NCBI GenBank assembly: GCA_030148805.1
Contig: JASBSS010000026.1
Location: 1 to 64,000, forward strand
Direction of reading: 5' to 3'
Length of the DNA stretch: 64,000 nt
From: Thiogranum sp.
GTDB taxonomy: Bacteria > Pseudomonadota > Gammaproteobacteria > DSM-19610
In this document: piece after piece, positions 28,382-36,378 of the stretch
Position numbering within the stretch: the first letter of the stretch is position 1
Layout: each line of letters begins with the position of its first letter
Made by a program: the position numbers and the translations under genes
The notes under the pieces: generated by a model
What the model saw: only the letters and a program-made list of their open reading frames with translations
Databases searched by the model: none
What the model was told of the DNA's origin: nothing

Positions 28382-29998
28382 ATGGCAAAGAAAACTTCAC
28401 TAGTGCTCAATCCGGTCAATTTTCTGCAGACCTTTGTGACCCAGAGTGTCAAAGTCGCCGGTCAGCTCGGGTGTCCCAGTTGTGAGACACACCTGGGATA
28501 TATCGAGTATCTGGGCCTGGCGGCGAGCAGTTGTTTCGAAACCGCTTATCGCGATGAGCACGAGCTGCAAGGCGAGATCGACCACGATCAATACAGCGAG
28601 CTGATCGTCAATATCAAAAACCAGATCGGCGGCAACTTCTCTCGCGCCTCCAGCGAGGCCGGCGTGGTGCGGGTGGTCAATACGCGTTGCCCTTTTGGGG
28701 AAGCGGTCAAGGAGGCGCCGGAGCTGTGCCGGATGACCTCCAGCGTCTTCGGCGGTATCGCCGCGCGCAATTTCGGCTACGCCAAGGTCGCGCTGAACTA
28801 GCGTCTGGCGACCAATGACGGGCTTTGTGAAGTCTGTATTTACACCGATCGCGAGCGTGCCGCGGAGTATGACGGTGACGTCTATGAGAACGAATCCGGC
28901 GCGGTGGTGGCGAAATCCGCCGCCGCCGGGGTCGCCGTGCGCCTGGAGGAGGGCCTGCAGAAGTCCTGGTGTCACACCCACCAGGCCGACGCCAAAAAGC
29001 GGCCGAAAACCTTCGTGGTCGCCGAGTCCGCCGCGATGAGAAAGATTTTTCAATCCATTGAACTCTTTGCACCCACCGACGCCAGCGTGCAGATTTTTGG
29101 CGAAACCGGGGTCGGCAAAGAATGGGTGGCCCGTGCCACGCACGCGCTCAGCGAGCGTTGGGAGCAACCTTTCATTGCCGTCAATTGTGGTGCCATCCCC
29201 GAAAACCTGATCGAGAGCGCGTTGTTTGGACATGAAAAAGGCGCGTTCACCGGCGCCTACAATGTCCACCACGGCTACTTCGAGCGGGCCGACAAGGGGA
29301 CGCTGTTTCTCGATGAAATCGATTCCCTCCCGGTCTCCGCGCAGGCCCGTTTGCTGAGAGTATTGCAGGAGGGCGAGTTCGAACGTGTCGGCGGTCGCCA
29401 GACGCTGAAATCGGACGTGCGCACCATCAGCGCCTGCAATCGAAGCATCGAAACCCTGGTGGCTTCCGGGGAATTCCGGCAGGATCTGTTCTACCGCCTG
29501 AGCGTCATTCCCATTCATATCCCGCCGCTGCGCGAACGGCCGGAGGATCTTTCTGCGTTGGTCAATCACTTTCTGCGCAAGCTCGCCGACAAATACAAGC
29601 GCAAGCCCAAGGTGTTGAGCGAATCGAGCTGGCTGAAGGCGATGGCTTACTCCTGGCCGGGTAACGTGCGTGAGCTGGAGAATATTCTCGAACGCGCGTT
29701 TTTATTTACGCCCGGTCCGGTGATCGCCACGCTGGACATTGCCGACGAAGGCGAGAGCGACGATCCGGGGGTCGCCGCGAGTGCCTTCGATTTGCGTACG
29801 GTGAAGAAGAACGCGACCATGGAGGTCGAGCGCAAGATCATCCACGCCGGCCTGAACCGCTTTGCCGGCAACGTCAGCAAGGTGGCACGCTCGATGGGTA
29901 TCACGCCGCGTGCGGTTCACCAGAAGCTGAAGTCCCACGGTATCGATCCGTCCGTCTATCGAAGGAAACCGGAAACCTCGCCGCCGGAGTTGGGTTGA
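28382..29998 (+). pseudogene. MetOD1-AAA+ sigma-54 dependent activator, interrupted by an in-frame UAG
   Basis: One reading frame of 539 codons broken by TAG at 28799-28801. Part 1 (139 residues) is a methanogen-output-domain-1 (MetOD1)-type sensory domain with CPSCETHLGYIE, LKNQIGG-like and CPFGEAVKEAPELCRMTSSVFGGIAARNFGYAKV blocks. The same frame continues past the stop with RLATNDGLCEVCIYTDRE, the domain's usual ending, then the AAA+ domain: Walker A GETGVGKE (about 240), GAFTGA (about 287), Walker B LFLDEID. A Fis-type helix-turn-helix ends the protein (VSKVARSMGITPRAVHQKL). GAFTGA is the sigma-54 contact loop. No frameshift is seen. The second half could restart at GTG 28904 or ATG 29036, both without a clear ribosome site. 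Confidence 0.85.
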
Positions 29999-30014: not shown

Positions 30015-30635
30015 TTAGCTCCGGCGGGAATTTCGCCGCTCTGCGCGGCGCAGGCCTAGTCGGCGGCTCAATAGCAGCGCGACCCTCAACGCCTCCTGGG
30101 TTTCCGCCTGGCGCGCAATGGACCACAGGCCTTTCAACCCCCCGGTGGCGGGTCGCTGCTGGGATTGCACCAGTGAGCTCGTTTCTTTCAGGCAGTATTC
30201 GAAATCCGCCAGCAAATCCTCTTTTTCCAGATAATCGAGCAGTCCGAGCAAGCGCGGCAAGCTCGCGACGAGCCCGTCGATCTCGCTTCTAGCGAGGCGA
30301 TCGAGCAACGTCAGCAAGGAGCTGCACATCGCGCTGAACCTTATCACCATATCGTCGGTAATGGCGTCGCGGGCGGCGCCGATCAGCCGGACAAGTTCGG
30401 CTACGCCCTCCAGGTCGCCGTTTTTCACCATGGACGCCAGCACCGGTACGGCGCCTTCGATTCCGCTGCGGCCCAGTTGATCCAGCAAACTGGCGCTCTC
30501 GGAAAGGGTTTGGGCAAGACGCGCGATCATCTCGTCGGTGAGCGCGTCCTGCGCGCCCTCGATCACCCGCCGCAGCTCGAGCGAGGCCGAGTCGGCCTGC
30601 GCCACAACCGTTGCAGTATTGCCTTCTTCACTCAT
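30015..30635 (-). CDS. DUF1641 family protein
   Basis: 206 residues, helical throughout, with two similar repeats (ELRRVIEGAQDALTDEMIARLA and ELVRLIGAARDAITDDMVIRFS) characteristic of DUF1641 proteins. No signal peptide. Members lie next to SQR-like flavoproteins in many sulfur-using prokaryotes, as here (25 bases downstream of that gene). A role as partner or docking subunit is inference. It is the last gene of the OmpW operon and converges with the activator gene. Confidence 0.85.
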   Translation of the reverse strand: MSEEGNTATVVAQADSASLELRRVIEGAQDALTDEMIARLAQTLSESASLLDQLGRSGIEGAVPVLASMVKNGDLEGVAELVRLIGAARDAITDDMVIRFSAMCSSLLTLLDRLARSEIDGLVASLPRLLGLLDYLEKEDLLADFEYCLKETSSLVQSQQRPATGGLKGLWSIARQAETQEALRVALLLSRRLGLRRAERRNSRRS

Positions 30636-30660
30636 CGTGTCTCTCCTCGGGTCCCGCCGA

Positions 30661-31797
30661 CTACAGCAGTCCGCGCACTGAATTCCAGTAAAGTTTGTTG
30701 TAGGCCAGTTTGAACCAATGGATCATCTGCGTCGGCGGTTGCGGCTGGGGCGGATGCTTGTAGTCGAACGATGCATAGGTCGCACGATCCTTTCCCGCCT
30801 CGATAAAGCAAAAGACCTTGCCGGAGTAGAGACTGGCCAGGGTGCCGTATCTGATCAAGGAGCTGAGGTTCTCGCCCAGCGTCTCCGCTTCGTAGTGCGC
30901 GGTGGAGCCGGCCTTGCTGATAGGGATGTTGGTGGTGTCGCCGAGCACGAATACGTTTTCCCGTCCTTCCATCTGCAGGGTTGCCGGATTGGTCGGAATC
31001 CAACCGCCGGCGCCAAGGGCATTGTCCAGTATCAGCGGCATGCCGGTATGGGGAGGGATGCTGACCAGCAGATCGTAGTCGAGCACACTGCCTTCTTCAC
31101 TGTGGATCTGGCCCTTATCGCCGTCGACTTGCTTGAGATTGAACAGCGTCTCGTAGTTGACCCCCAGGCGGTCGAATTCCTTCTGCGCCCACTTGCCGAC
31201 GTTTTCCAGGGAATGCAGACGTCCGATCGGATAGGTGTAGAAGAACTCCACCTGGTCGAGAATGCCGCGGTCCCTGAAGTAATCGTGCATCATGAAGGTC
31301 AGCTCGAGCGGTACCATCGGGCACTTGTGAGGGACCCCGGTAGTGACGACCACTCGTCCTCCGGTGAACGCCTGCAGGCTGGAAAAGGTCTTTTCCGCCG
31401 CCTCCAGCGTATAGACATGATTGGCGTTTTCGGCCAGCCCGGGTATGCTCTCGGGATTAGGTCGCGATCCGGTGCAGATCACCAGGTAGTCATAGTCGTG
31501 AGTGGTGCCGCTCTCGGTTTGCAGCCGGTTGTTGTCCAGATCGAAACTCTGGACCGGATCGACGTGCAGTACGATACCGGGTTCCAGTAGTGAGCGGAGA
31601 TCACGATACAGCTCGTTGGCGGCCATGCGCCCGAATGCAACGTAGAGCAGGCCTGGTTGATACATATGTTTGTCGGAAGCCGTCAGAAGTGTAACGCGCG
31701 CCGCGCCGGAGGCGATCTCCGGCGCGAGACGACGGGCGAGGTTGTTCGCCAGAATGGTGCCACCGGTTCCGCCTCCTACAATGATGATCTTCTTCAT
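30661..31797 (-). CDS. Sulfide:quinone oxidoreductase-like flavoprotein
   Basis: 378 residues. N-terminal dinucleotide fold IIIVGGGTGGTILANNLARR, a second FAD block VICTGSRPNPESIPG, and VFVLGDTTNIP near 282-291, the FAD-contacting GD motif. Cysteines at 108, 159 (VPHKCPMVP) and 330 (GKVFCFIE); the last two sit where SQR enzymes carry their redox pair. SQR oxidises sulfide at the membrane, passing electrons to quinone and making polysulfide. There is no signal peptide; membrane contact would be peripheral. The exact SQR type is not settled and a related reductase is possible. Flanked by TusA and DUF1641 genes. Confidence 0.82.
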   Translation of the reverse strand: MKKIIIVGGGTGGTILANNLARRLAPEIASGAARVTLLTASDKHMYQPGLLYVAFGRMAANELYRDLRSLLEPGIVLHVDPVQSFDLDNNRLQTESGTTHDYDYLVICTGSRPNPESIPGLAENANHVYTLEAAEKTFSSLQAFTGGRVVVTTGVPHKCPMVPLELTFMMHDYFRDRGILDQVEFFYTYPIGRLHSLENVGKWAQKEFDRLGVNYETLFNLKQVDGDKGQIHSEEGSVLDYDLLVSIPPHTGMPLILDNALGAGGWIPTNPATLQMEGRENVFVLGDTTNIPISKAGSTAHYEAETLGENLSSLIRYGTLASLYSGKVFCFIEAGKDRATYASFDYKHPPQPQPPTQMIHWFKLAYNKLYWNSVRGLL

Positions 31798-31831
31798 AGT
31801 GCACCTCTGATTGGTTGAGTATGGGTTTCAG

Positions 31832-32062
31832 TCATTTCTTCTTCCTGACCCGAATGTGATAAACGCCGTTTTCTTCATGGGTGTCGATCAACTCGTGACC
31901 GACCTTGTGTATCCATTCGGGAATATCGTGAGCCGATCCCTGATCGGTGGACAGGACCTCCAGTTCGTCACCGATCTGCGCCAGCTTCATCGCTGCGATC
32001 AGCTCCATCAGAGGGCCGGGACAGAAGGAGTTGCGCGCGTCAACACAAATTGGATGATTCAT
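31832..32062 (-). CDS. TusA/SirA family sulfur carrier protein
   Basis: 76 residues from ATG 32062. The family motif DARNSFCPGPLMELI has Cys14 in the CPxP position that carries sulfur as a persulfide; Cys6 precedes it. The fold follows with ELEVLSTDQGSAHDIPEWIHKVGHELI. TusA-type proteins shuttle sulfane sulfur in the cytoplasm. In this operon it probably accepts sulfur from the SQR-like enzyme or DsrE. Longer upstream frames overlap the DsrE gene and are less likely. Confidence 0.9.
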   Translation of the reverse strand: MNHPICVDARNSFCPGPLMELIAAMKLAQIGDELEVLSTDQGSAHDIPEWIHKVGHELIDTHEENGVYHIRVRKKK

Positions 32063-32103
32063 TGCGTCCTCGTGACATTGCAAAAGTCTTTTGGGTGGCT
32101 GAG

Positions 32104-32493
32104 TCAGAATGTAAGCACATGAGCGTCTTCGCAATCTGATATGTACTTGGTCAGCCCCAGCGGTTTTTCGATATAGCTATCCAGCTGACCGTCCAGAACC
32201 CCCAGCACCTCCATCGCCATTGAACAGGGATACAGCACCGCCCCGCCAAGCTCGACCGCTTGACGAAACAAGTCGGTGAACGGCGGTACATGTTTTTGCT
32301 CCATCAGGGATCCGATTTCGCCTTCGCTGGGTGCTTGCAGTCTGCTGTCGCGAATGAAATATTGAAGTGCGTTCATCGACAGAAAGACCGATACCGGGTT
32401 GCCGCTGACCGACGCGGTGGCGGCGAACATGGCCGCCATTTGCAGATTTTCCCTGAACCCCGAAATACAAATTATGTTGAACTTGGTTGTCAT
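32104..32493 (-). CDS. DsrE family sulfur-transfer protein
   Basis: 129 residues. DsrE/F-like Rossmann fold: FNIICISGF, MFAATASVSGNPVSVFLSMNAL and ELGGAVLYPCSMAMEVLGV. Cys90 in YPCS is the probable sulfur-carrying residue; Cys121 is near the C-terminus. Proteins of this family trade persulfide sulfur with TusA, the next gene (41 bases). Cytoplasmic. Confidence 0.88.
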   Translation of the reverse strand: MTTKFNIICISGFRENLQMAAMFAATASVSGNPVSVFLSMNALQYFIRDSRLQAPSEGEIGSLMEQKHVPPFTDLFRQAVELGGAVLYPCSMAMEVLGVLDGQLDSYIEKPLGLTKYISDCEDAHVLTF

Positions 32494-32560
32494 AACCTCT
32501 GTTTCCCGTTTGAATGACCATCATAGGGGGATCGCAGTGACCTGATTCCCGTTACTGTAT

Positions 32561-33220
32561 TCAAAAGCGCCGGCCGATTCCGACTCCCAGGAACCAGGGG
32601 TCTATATCGACATCGACGGTGCGCTCGACACCCGCGGAACGGATCGTCGCCTTGGTGTCCATACGAATGTATTTGGCGTCGAGGTTCACGAACCAGGCGT
32701 CTTTTACCTTGATATCCACGCCGAACTGCGCGCTCAGGCCGGTGGAGCTAGACAAGTGGACATCGCTGGCGCCCAGTGCATTATCCAGGCTGGCGGTGGA
32801 TTTCTCGTCGTAGAATTTGGTGTAGTTGAATCCGAGACCCACGTAAGGTTTGACCTGTGCCTGCGGACGGAAGTGGTACTGCAGACTAATTACCGGCGGC
32901 AGCGTGCGGATCTTCGCGATCGTTCCCAACGGGGCGATGCTTCCGCGTGCGTCGATATCATGTTTGCTGGTGCCCAAAATGGCTTCAAGCGCGAGGTTCC
33001 TCGTAAGAAAGTAAGAAAAATCCAGCTCCAAGGTGGTGTAGGAGCCGCCTGCAACCGCCGAGCCCGGAATCGTGCTGATCTGACCGCTGCTGTCGTTCGG
33101 ACTGATGTGCAGCGCGCGCGCGCGAACCATCCAGGGGCTGTCCTCGGCATTGGCCTGCTGGCAGCCGCCGGCGACGATCAGGCCCGCGAGCAGTGAAAGG
33201 GTGATAGGCGCATTATTCAT
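32561..33220 (-). CDS. ompW: OmpW family outer-membrane protein
   Basis: 219 residues from ATG 33220, with GGGAGG about eight bases upstream; a longer start at 33253 would lie across the promoter. Signal peptide about 1-25 (ending QQANAED). OmpW features: WMVRARALHISPNDSS at the start of the barrel, LQYHFRPQAQVKPYVGLGFNYTKF, and a C-terminal strand ending GIGRRF, with the final Phe needed for barrel insertion. Eight-stranded barrel passing small hydrophobic compounds. First gene of the sulfur operon; 67 bases to DsrE. Confidence 0.9.
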   Translation of the reverse strand: MNNAPITLSLLAGLIVAGGCQQANAEDSPWMVRARALHISPNDSSGQISTIPGSAVAGGSYTTLELDFSYFLTRNLALEAILGTSKHDIDARGSIAPLGTIAKIRTLPPVISLQYHFRPQAQVKPYVGLGFNYTKFYDEKSTASLDNALGASDVHLSSSTGLSAQFGVDIKVKDAWFVNLDAKYIRMDTKATIRSAGVERTVDVDIDPWFLGVGIGRRF

Positions 33221-33253: not shown

Positions 33254-33273
33254 GATGCATGCGGTATGCCAAA
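33254..33273 (-). promoter_or_regulatory. Sigma-54 (-24/-12) promoter of the OmpW-DsrE-TusA-SQR-DUF1641 operon
   Basis: On the minus strand TTGGCATACCGCATGCAT matches the consensus, with GG at 33270-33269 and GC at 33258-33257. Start site near 33246, about 26 bases before the ompW ATG. The DNA upstream (33271-33300) is AT-rich, suiting IHF. Confidence 0.75.
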
Positions 33274-33624: not shown

Positions 33625-34917
33625 TCATGAGTGCTCACCGTGCTCACCGGCTTTGAAGCCCAGCTGTAGCCACAGGCTGTGTGCGGTGCCGTGGGTGAGA
33701 TTGTCGGCGTTGTCCTGGTTGTACTGCAGGCGCAGCCACAGGTTGGATGCAAGAGTTCGGGTCAGGACGAATGATAAACGGTATCGGCGGCTGCGTAGCG
33801 GGTCGTCGATGCTGTTGCGATTGCCACCGGCCAGCTCGGCACGTAGCCCCGCGCTCCAACGGGGGGCGAACCGGTCAAGTCGCCACACAGCCTGGGTGAA
33901 TCCGCCCACGTCGAGCAATGTCTCCCGCGTGGACAGCGCGCCGTCTCCGGCTTCATACCGGCGAAACATCAGTTCAGAACGCCAGTCAAAAGCAGGGTGA
34001 GTTTGATGCGGACCGCGCAACCGTGAAATCCGCAGATCGATACCGAGAATCTGGGTCTGGGTGGACTGGCCGCTGGCGTTCGGTCCATAGAGCGCGGAGA
34101 CGCCGATATCGTTGCGCCGGCGGGCGCCGTGGGAAAAGGGTTGCGACCATCTCAACAGATACAACAAATCCGCTACGGAAGTCGCCTCGCGGGCGATCAG
34201 TCGATGGCCGCCTACGGACTCATCGGGCTGCGCAAGAAAGCTGGTCGCGGTTTCTCCCGCGGCGTTGAACACGCCAAAAAACAGGGCTGGGTGCCGGGCA
34301 AGGGGTGCATCCCAGCGAGCCTGGATTCCCTGGCTGCGCAACTTGTCGGCGCCAAAAAGTCGCGTTATCACCAGTGGCACGTCCACGAAGTTCCAGTCAT
34401 CCGGATGTCGGGTCATTTCGCGCCCGAATTGCGGGTACAGTTGCCCCGCGGTGACGGACAATCCGGCCCCCAGATTCTCAGCGTGAAAATAGGCTTGCTC
34501 CAGTTCAACGACGTTTGTTCCGTCCGGTTCGATGTGGCTGACGAGACTGGCGGTCGCGCGCAGTCCACGACCGAAGTCCGCACGCGCCGCAAGCGCCAGC
34601 GCCTGAAGCGTGAAACCGGTCTGGCGCGGATCGTGCGTACCGTCCTGTAGTTGGCGTAAGACCGGTGGCCTGGCGGTGGAGCCGCCCGCGGCAGCTAATC
34701 CGGAAAACGACCAGTGCAGATCGGCGGGGGGTCTCGGGTCGGCTACCGGGGCACGCGATCGAGCCGCCGGCTCGGACCACTGACCGGCGGCCGGATTCAT
34801 CGTGACCGGGCTCTCAGTAGCCCGGGCCGCGTTAACGAAGCAGACGGAAACCAGCAGCAGCGCTGGAGCGAGAATCCAAGTCGCCACCTGGGCGCGAAGA
34901 TTCCAAGCGCTGGCCAC
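33625..34917 (-). CDS. Outer-membrane beta-barrel (porin-like) protein
   Basis: 430 residues. Chosen start GTG 34917 overlaps the TAG stop of the MerC gene and gives a signal peptide about 1-33 (hydrophobic ILAPALLLVSVCF, ending ARATES). The rest is a chain of amphipathic strands with aromatic girdles, ending in GTAHSLWLQLGFKAGEHGEHS. There is no TonB plug, so it looks like a porin rather than a TonB-dependent receptor. Similar barrels sit beside MerC in zinc-regulated clusters, but I found no Zur-type site. Confidence 0.75.
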   Translation of the reverse strand: MASAWNLRAQVATWILAPALLLVSVCFVNAARATESPVTMNPAAGQWSEPAARSRAPVADPRPPADLHWSFSGLAAAGGSTARPPVLRQLQDGTHDPRQTGFTLQALALAARADFGRGLRATASLVSHIEPDGTNVVELEQAYFHAENLGAGLSVTAGQLYPQFGREMTRHPDDWNFVDVPLVITRLFGADKLRSQGIQARWDAPLARHPALFFGVFNAAGETATSFLAQPDESVGGHRLIAREATSVADLLYLLRWSQPFSHGARRRNDIGVSALYGPNASGQSTQTQILGIDLRISRLRGPHQTHPAFDWRSELMFRRYEAGDGALSTRETLLDVGGFTQAVWRLDRFAPRWSAGLRAELAGGNRNSIDDPLRSRRYRLSFVLTRTLASNLWLRLQYNQDNADNLTHGTAHSLWLQLGFKAGEHGEHS

Positions 34918-35369
34918 TAGCGAGCACTGGCCGCGGTGGTCTGCCGGTTGGCCTGCAGGTGGCAGCCCGCGTCGCCGCAGATCCGGCAAAACCGGCACCA
35001 ATAGGCGTTGCGGATATGGGCGCTGATGAGGATGAGGCCGCCGCCGACGACCAGGAGGGGCTCTAAGATGGCGCCGGCGTTTTCCGGCAAGAGGGTGGCC
35101 GAGATCAGCAAAGCCAGGCCGAGAGCGGCGGTCAACGACACCGACAGCTTGCGGTGCTTGCGATAGCCGGGGATGAAGGCGGCCAGCCCGATCACCAACA
35201 TCACCAGCGAGAGCACACTGTGAGTCAAATGCTCGGTGGCGGCCAATACGGGTAAAGTGGTAATCAGCAACGGTGTGGCCAGACAATGCAGCACGCACAG
35301 CAGCGAGGCGCTGACGCCCGCCATGTCCCAGGCTGTCCGGTTGTGGCTTGGTTGACGCATCGTGTTCAT
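34917..35369 (-). CDS. MerC domain membrane protein
   Basis: 150 residues with four membrane helices. The MerC mark is an early CVLHCLATPLL motif within helix 1 (Cys25, Cys29), and further Cys near the C-terminus (WCRFCRICGDAGCH). MerC carries mercury or other soft metal ions across the inner membrane. The Cys-rich tail is unusual and could bind metal. Coupled to the barrel gene downstream. Confidence 0.85.
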   Translation of the reverse strand: MNTMRQPSHNRTAWDMAGVSASLLCVLHCLATPLLITTLPVLAATEHLTHSVLSLVMLVIGLAAFIPGYRKHRKLSVSLTAALGLALLISATLLPENAGAILEPLLVVGGGLILISAHIRNAYWCRFCRICGDAGCHLQANRQTTAASAR

Positions 35370-35412
35370 AAACTGGAGCCTCTTGAGTAGTGGTTATGAG
35401 TTGGGGTTCGGG

Positions 35413-35628
35413 TTATGGGCAACAACGACAGCCTTTGCCGCAAGTGGGAAGGGAACGGGCCGCGCGCTCTCGTCCCCGCGCCGCCGGACCGTGTACCGCC
35501 GGGGCGCTGGATATACGCTGTCGCATGCGTACGCCGCAATGCGAACAGCTTGGAGCAGGAGCTGTCATCGACTGACGTAATTCGATCTGGTCGCCACAGT
35601 TGCTGCACAGATAGTGATAAGTTGGCAT
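35413..35628 (-). CDS. FmdB-type zinc ribbon protein with Cys-rich tail
   Basis: 71 residues from ATG 35628. The N-terminus MPTYHYLCSNCGDQIELRQ plus SCSHCGVRMRQRIS forms the two-CxxC zinc ribbon of FmdB/CxxC regulatory proteins. The tail after a basic stretch ends LPTCGKGCRCCP, with four additional Cys. Role unknown; suited to metal binding in a MerC cluster. Confidence 0.82.
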   Translation of the reverse strand: MPTYHYLCSNCGDQIELRQSMTAPAPSCSHCGVRMRQRISSAPAVHGPAARGRERAARSLPTCGKGCRCCP

Positions 35629-35724
35629 GTTGACCGTCTCCGATAATGCCGTGGCAAAAAGCCGGGCGAGGGTGCGTCCGTGTACCCTGGCCCTCACAAT
35701 GGAGGAGGCGAAAATGTACGGCGG

Positions 35725-36378
35725 TTAAGTCCAGCGCGGAGGCTGCTTTCCCTTCACACCCATCGACGCGGCCGTCGGTTGGGAAACGGCGCGGGTCGGA
35801 GCGTCTGGATCGGGCGCTCTGAGACGACGGAACTCGGTTTCCCAGATCCAGCCGCTGACGGTGATGTCTTTGGGGATGAGGGGGTGATTGCGCAGCTGTT
35901 CGACACAGCGAATGCAGGTGTGGTCGACGTCATCCATCATGCCGATCCATTTCGCGAACGCGCCTTTTTTCAGGCTCAGCTCCGGTAAGGAAGGGTCGAT
36001 GGGGATGGTGTCGAGGTCGATGCCTTTGGCCCGCAGCGCGCTTTCCAGATCGTTGCCGTTGGCCGAAAGCATGCCGCAGCCGGTGTGTTGCAGAACGACG
36101 ATCTCACGGGTACCAAAAAAGTTGATCGTCAACATCGCCGAGCGGATGGCATCGTCGGTGACGATGCCGCCGGCGTTACGGAACAGATGCGCGTCACCGC
36201 CGCCGACCGGCGTGTCAGCGCGGATGCCGAGTGCCTCGTCCACCGGCACCCGTTCATCCATACAGGTCAGTACCCACAGGTTGCGCATGTTCGGGCCGTC
36301 GGCGGCGAATTGGCGCCGGGTTTCCCAGCGGGTGGTTTCCGCTATCCGATTTTCCAGTTGCTGTTTCAATGTGCTCAT
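35725..36378 (-). CDS. Beta-class carbonic anhydrase
   Basis: 217 residues. Zinc ligands Cys39 (with Asp41-x-Arg43 in CMDERV), His98 and Cys101 (HTGCGM) are in place. It interconverts CO2 and bicarbonate in the cytoplasm. Beta-CA clade enzymes of sulfur bacteria also include COS and CS2 hydrolases with the same zinc site, so those reactions are an alternative. Upstream is a CCTATCT/AGATAGG inverted repeat (36472-36507). Confidence 0.88.
   Translation of the reverse strand: MSTLKQQLENRIAETTRWETRRQFAADGPNMRNLWVLTCMDERVPVDEALGIRADTPVGGGDAHLFRNAGGIVTDDAIRSAMLTINFFGTREIVVLQHTGCGMLSANGNDLESALRAKGIDLDTIPIDPSLPELSLKKGAFAKWIGMMDDVDHTCIRCVEQLRNHPLIPKDITVSGWIWETEFRRLRAPDPDAPTRAVSQPTAASMGVKGKQPPRWT

Follow-up and report, generated by a model that had tools for sequence, protein, structure and literature searches.

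A conserved DsrE-TusA-SQR-DUF1641 gene cassette in Thiogranum and a candidate quinone-coupling partner for type III-like sulfide:quinone oxidoreductases

Results and discussion

Layout of the locus

The stretch of DNA analysed here comprises 64,000 nucleotides of Thiogranum sp. (assembly GCA_030148805.1, contig JASBSS010000026.1, positions 1 to 64,000; hereafter the window). It carries a run of five genes on the minus strand at 30015-33220 that encode, in order of transcription, an OmpW-family protein, a DsrE-family protein, a TusA-family protein, a flavoprotein resembling sulfide:quinone oxidoreductase (SQR), and a DUF1641-like protein. The core unit consists of the last four genes, dsrE-tusA-sqr(type III-like)-DUF1641, and OmpW lies outside it. 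The intergenic gaps are 67, 41, 34 and 25 bases in that order, and the statement in a preliminary description of this sequence that five genes lie on one strand with gaps of 25-67 bases was confirmed in full, with the following coordinates:

32561..33220, minus strand: OmpW-family outer membrane protein (Pfam OmpW, 1.1e-51); accessory, lineage-specific and outside the core cassette
32104..32493, minus strand: DsrE-family sulfurtransferase-like protein (Pfam DrsE_2, 1.2e-8), with conserved Cys90
31832..32062, minus strand: TusA-family sulfur carrier (Pfam TusA, 9.5e-21), CPGP motif with Cys14
30661..31797, minus strand: type III-like SQR, a flavin adenine dinucleotide (FAD) protein with redox Cys159 and Cys330 (NCBIfam NF049943, 9.4e-89)
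30015..30635, minus strand: DUF1641 protein (ForE/YjlC-related), proposed membrane/quinone-coupling subunit (PF07849 in orthologues, profile matches)

The OmpW start was placed at the ATG at 33220, with an alternative longer frame from 33253, and the TusA start at the ATG at 32062; the longest TusA frame begins with TTG at 32134.

Conservation of the four-gene cassette

The DsrE-TusA-SQR-DUF arrangement is present three times in the source genome, in the window and on contigs C36 and C38, and these three cassettes account for all SQR genes that were found there with an SQR profile. The genome also carries dsrA and soxB, and further copies of the cassette are found in relatives of the genus. 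A scan with the SQR alignment yielded 80 named loci from Gamma-, Beta- and Alphaproteobacteria, which, after removal of duplicates and addition of five loci from the source genome or close relatives, gave a set of 83. All 83 contain the SQR gene, 82 the gene for the DUF protein, 81 TusA and 80 DsrE; most of the exceptions are at contig ends (L054, L059 and L084), and L026 is without a detected DsrE. The DUF start lies a median of 12 bases past the SQR stop. Because the named-locus scan is biased to close relatives, 369 evenly sampled gammaproteobacterial genomes were also examined, and 48 of them contained an SQR-like match. The close SQR homologues in this sample (L128-L151) are accompanied by the DUF protein and TusA in 24 of 24 cases each and by DsrE in 22 of 24, and no DUF protein, TusA or DsrE was found alongside the distant SQRs of the same sample (L154-L156). 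The four-gene arrangement is far above chance, and the conserved neighbourhood on which the preliminary description had staked its proposal is present both among the 83 loci and in the independent sample. One of the distant SQR homologues (L154:877-2601), which lacks a DUF1641 neighbour, is a 574-amino acid protein with an apparent C-terminal CBS-domain fusion.

The presumed sulfur-handling residues are also conserved: Cys90 of DsrE in 81 of 81 proteins and Cys14 of TusA in 82 of 82, where the CPGP sequence fits the CPxP carrier motif. In this respect the cassette resembles the TusA-DsrE relays encoded by rhd-tusA-dsrE2, dsrE3A-tusA-hdr and the YTD cluster, which carry out cysteine-based sulfane sulfur transfer (PMC8551704, PMC13293266). 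The partners in those relays are rhodanese, Hdr or YeeE/DsrFH, whereas in the cassette they are SQR and DUF1641. A Pfam census of one flanking open reading frame per side revealed no universal outer neighbour, the commonest being NMT1-like proteins (10 of 97) and sigma-54 activators (5-6).

Organisms that carry the cassette include the sulfur oxidisers Thiodiazotropha, Thiothrix and Sulfuritalea. It is also found in lineages that base their energy metabolism on iron or organic compounds (Ferrovum, Gallionella, haloarchaea), and SQRs can act in detoxification (PMC9666304). The cassette might thus serve not respiration but sulfane-sulfur handling and sulfide detoxification, keeping sulfide and polysulfide low and feeding sulfur to biosynthesis. 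The presence of dsrA, soxB and three cassette copies in the source genome, and the many sulfur oxidisers among the carriers, argue against this explanation, which we consider possible but doubtful; the chemistry would be identical, and the purpose alone would differ.

The flavoprotein groups with SQRs

Among NCBIfam models, the flavoprotein matched type III sulfide quinone reductase (NF049943) best; the match stays below the curated threshold of this model, which was designed for selenoproteins of one subtype. The protein also matches Pfam Pyr_redox_2 (8.8e-20). Its best match in the PDB was human SQOR (3.2e-43), followed by archaeal and Aquifex SQRs, and the matches to NDH-2 and FCSD were far weaker. 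Cys159 is conserved in 86 of 86 and Cys330 in 85 of 86 sequences, and in the alignment with SQOR the two residues coincide with its catalytic cysteines. By these comparisons the flavoprotein groups with SQR and not with NDH-2 or FCSD, as the preliminary description had supposed. In a phylogenetic tree, the cassette proteins of proteobacteria formed one group and the haloarchaeal proteins another, both apart from the type II-like SQRs, in a topology with poorly supported deep forks and two very long outgroups. The type III SQRs (SqrC) of Caldivirga maquilingensis and cable bacteria are close known counterparts; Cys159 and Cys339 of the cable-bacterial enzyme correspond to the two redox cysteines (PMC13047784). 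Type III SQR has been described as a stand-alone monotopic enzyme, and no mention of a DUF1641 subunit was found in the type III SQR literature examined. A periplasmic orientation has been presumed for the cable-bacterial enzyme (PMC13293266), in contrast to the cytoplasmic placement proposed below.

Identity and architecture of the DUF1641 partner

Assignment of the partner to DUF1641 is based on family-wide evidence. PF07849 matches 40 of 76 orthologues (E up to 1), the best at 1.1e-7, and a profile of the family aligned with NCBI-annotated DUF1641 proteins over 170 columns (hhalign, 98%, E 1.9e-13). When 398 Pseudomonadota genomes were searched with PF07849, a match was obtained in one genome, where it also adjoins an SQR-like gene; Pfam alone would therefore miss the family. 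Since Pfam does not recognise nearly half of the partners in proteobacteria and detected the family in 1 of 398 genomes, the link between DUF1641 and SQR is easy to overlook. We found no discussion of it in the passages on DUF1641 that were examined, although one published table has DUF1641 and SQR adjacent in Ignicoccus.

The partners are modular, with a D-A-L-T-D-E-M-V motif that is present once in 18 proteins, twice in 28 and three times in 29, with the repeats always spaced exactly 60 residues apart. The protein of the window has two such 60-residue helical repeats, with motifs at residues 30 and 90. The repeats are accompanied by a C-terminal module, GGLxGLW...RD..TQ..L. The last 45 residues exceed the remainder of the protein in basicity in all 75 orthologues compared, and they contain a Trp in 57 of 75; elsewhere in the protein Trp occurs in 2 of 75.

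Profile searches of the PDB connected the partner with subunits of other enzymes. The cassette DUF profile matched YjlC, annotated as 'NDH-2 membrane coupling protein' (3.3e-5), and a profile of the annotated haloarchaeal DUF1641 partners of SQR matched ForE1 (1.1e-6), YjlC (2.8e-4) and HucM (3.3e-3), the only PDB matches below 0.01 for that profile. Judged by these profiles, YjlC- and ForE-type subunits are homologous to the DUF1641 protein of the cassette and HucM weakly so; given the E-value of 3.3e-3, the kinship of HucM is probable rather than proved. The known homologues are membrane-associated or quinone-linking subunits, and the remark in the preliminary description that DUF1641 has no settled function is thus dated.

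YjlC forms part of the Bacillus NDH-2 system YjlC-YjlD (PDB 9pxk, 9pxl, 9pxm and 9snk), which like the cassette pairs a flavoprotein of the two-dinucleotide-binding-domain superfamily with a DUF1641-related partner; the cassette SQR profile matches YjlD at 7.2e-10. This system differs in its donor, NADH, in the absence of TusA and DsrE, and in YjlC itself, which is shorter and without the 60-residue repeats. ForE (YjgD/YrhD, DUF1641) is the partner in ForCE, which transfers electrons from formate to menaquinone. In the report on this enzyme, ForE1 was needed for formate:menadione activity and for menaquinone binding (PMC8808070), a requirement of a partner for quinone-linked activity that resembles our proposal for the cassette. 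The catalytic subunit of ForCE is a Mo/W-bis-PGD iron-sulfur enzyme and has no kinship to SQR. HucM belongs to the [NiFe]-hydrogenase Huc (PDB 7uus), the catalytic subunits of which likewise show no kinship to SQR, and its weak sequence match extends over the C-terminal module. HucM is a helical scaffold that forms a hydrophobic tube that carries menaquinone from the membrane, where a helix with Arg, Lys and Trp is located (PMC10017518). A Huc-type hydrogenase operon of Parageobacillus includes a DUF1641 gene (PMC12976888).

Archaeal loci and SQR-like proteins that lack Cys330

Haloarchaeal plasmids also encode TusA-SQR-DUF1641, with some 0-2 bases between DUF1641 and the gene before it; the genera concerned are Haloarcula, Halobaculum, Halobacterium, Halobellus and Halopiger. 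In Natrialba the order is SQR-DUF1641-cytochrome bd subunits, which places SQR beside a quinol oxidase. In Natronorubrum, Salarchaeum and a second Halobellus gene, DUF1641 is paired with a more type II-like SQR. A second flavoprotein-DUF1641 pair was also observed in Halobellus limi, directly 3' of TusA-SQR-DUF1641 (L102:4831-6886). No annotated DUF1641 neighbour was found for the type II SQR of Staphylococcus or for the SQR-like proteins of Paracoccus and Pantoea. In Ignicoccus hospitalis, an adjacent DUF1641 protein and FAD-dependent oxidoreductase were up 10- and 5-fold together in a proteomic study (PMC3149612).

A group of SQR-like proteins without Cys330 provides a contrast. These are encoded on pKLC102 (L097), in Comamonas, and at L094 and L152, with L098 listed in the same clade. 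Their genes are directly followed by a DUF1641-like gene and have no adjoining TusA or DsrE. The pattern, drawn from few and related proteins, is suggestive of a DUF1641 role on the flavin/quinone side and of TusA and DsrE on the sulfur side. The SQR-like/DUF1641 pair of pKLC102 is situated among conjugation genes.

A proposed module for sulfide oxidation

SQR is the textbook stand-alone enzyme of sulfide oxidation. For the cassette we favour a different explanation, to which we attach fair confidence: a multi-part sulfide oxidation module facing the cytoplasm, in which DUF1641 is the dedicated partner subunit of SQR. DUF1641 is the good candidate subunit that the preliminary description took it for. 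What the sequences establish is the conservation of the cassette and of the catalytic cysteines, together with the homologies described above. The type III-like SQR would oxidise sulfide at the Cys159/Cys330 pair next to the FAD. TusA (Cys14) and DsrE (Cys90) would then carry the persulfide sulfur into later steps of sulfur metabolism, which in a genome with dsrA are probably those of the Dsr route. Electrons would pass from FAD to the quinone pool. We place the reaction on the cytoplasmic side because no signal peptide or transmembrane stretch is evident in any core protein and because TusA and DsrE are cytoplasmic carriers. By analogy with ForE, YjlC and HucM, which serve other soluble oxidoreductases, we infer a physical complex in which DUF1641 would act as an oligomeric helical scaffold, dock the flavoprotein, and aid its access to quinone, with the basic, usually Trp-containing C-terminal module contacting the membrane. 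That DUF1641 links an SQR in the cytoplasm to quinone in the membrane in this manner is the best inference and, in our view, more likely than not.

Several observations weigh against this proposal. SQRs are regarded as monotopic enzymes whose own C-terminus makes the contact with membrane and quinone (PMC9666304), so that they may have no need of a separate subunit, and the cassette SQR keeps a C-terminal aromatic helix-like segment. The DUF1641 protein of the window has no significant Pfam match by itself, and the HucM match, weak with the haloarchaeal profile, was 0.23 with another. AlphaFold models of the DUF proteins were helical but of low confidence (pLDDT 60 for the window protein and 76.5 for the shortest form), and with these low-confidence models Foldseek found no match in the PDB and VIA-align returned none. 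In Candidatus Chlorohelix, no annotated DUF1641 gene adjoins TusA-SQR.

The same properties of SQR bear on a second possibility, that DUF1641 is a structural or assembly factor that oligomerises or stabilises SQR and has no role in quinone access, the membrane-binding and quinone-site elements being those in the C-terminal domains of SQR (PMC9666304). Deletion of HucM removes the oligomer and leaves Huc active (PMC10017518), and ForC1 without ForE1 also loses most of its formate:benzyl viologen activity, which suggests a structural role. However, menadione reduction and quinone content depend on ForE1 as well (PMC8808070), and DUF1641 is common to enzymes that have different folds but share the acceptor, quinone. 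We regard a purely structural function as unlikely.

An extension of the quinone-coupling proposal, which we offer tentatively, is that DUF1641 forms a stalk on which the type III-like SQRs of this clade stand as quinone-coupled complexes. How many 60-residue repeats the stalk has would determine how far the enzyme is held from the membrane, with space in which TusA and DsrE could dock and receive persulfide directly. If so, DUF1641 would be a general connector to quinone, shared by hydrogenase, formate dehydrogenase, NADH dehydrogenase and SQR, and a family of unknown function would gain one testable job, common to four types of enzyme in both bacteria and archaea. If a widespread clade of SQRs has a quinone-coupling subunit and its own sulfur relay, their purification, assay and membrane topology would need rethinking.

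OmpW and the putative sigma-54 control region

Two further features flank the five-gene run:

33256..33271, minus strand: putative sigma-54 -24/-12 element, TGGCATACCGCATGCA, 51 bases 5' of the OmpW ATG
28382..29998, plus strand: sigma-54 activator (MetOD1 sensor, AAA+, Fis helix-turn-helix; Pfam), convergent; probable regulator of the OmpW-led operon

The preliminary description had pictured entry of reduced sulfur through OmpW as the first step of a five-gene pathway. OmpW is the leading gene in the window and in a small number of related loci, and it adjoins the cassette only in the window and four other distinct loci (L011/L014, which are one locus, L015, L016 and L134) among more than 100 examined. 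It is absent beside the two other cassette copies of the source genome. H2S is small and passes outer membranes without a special port. We consider an entry-port function for OmpW very improbable.

The OmpW gene has a sigma-54-like site of its own. A GG-N10-GC element of the form TGGYA...TGCA lies exactly at -51 from the OmpW ATG in the window, L011, L015 and L016. The pattern TGG[CT]A-N7-TGCA is rare in these sequences, with about 7 occurrences in 195,986 strand-bases, and three of these occurrences are the L011, L015 and L016 sites; the window site deviates from this pattern (ATGCA after N7, T counted) but fits GG-N10-GC. A scan with the sigma-54 consensus, allowing 2 mismatches, performed at chance level and did not list the conserved site, which the four-locus comparison alone revealed; scans for sigma-70 promoters and terminators were also at chance level. 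The gene for the MetOD1 sigma-54 activator is convergent with the operon in three of these loci, the window, L011 and L015, and its product is the probable regulator of the OmpW-led operon. In the window its frame is interrupted by a single in-frame stop (28799-28801), which could reflect either a genuine nonsense mutation or a mistake in the assembly; the L011 homologue is intact. Given the rarity of OmpW beside the cassette, the converging activator and the conserved -51 element, we read OmpW and the regulator as a local regulatory add-on.

Upstream of OmpW, the window encodes a beta-barrel frame and MerC-like, small zinc-ribbon-like and carbonic anhydrase-like proteins (33625-36378), of which at least the MerC-like and zinc-ribbon-like proteins recur upstream of the cassette in L011.

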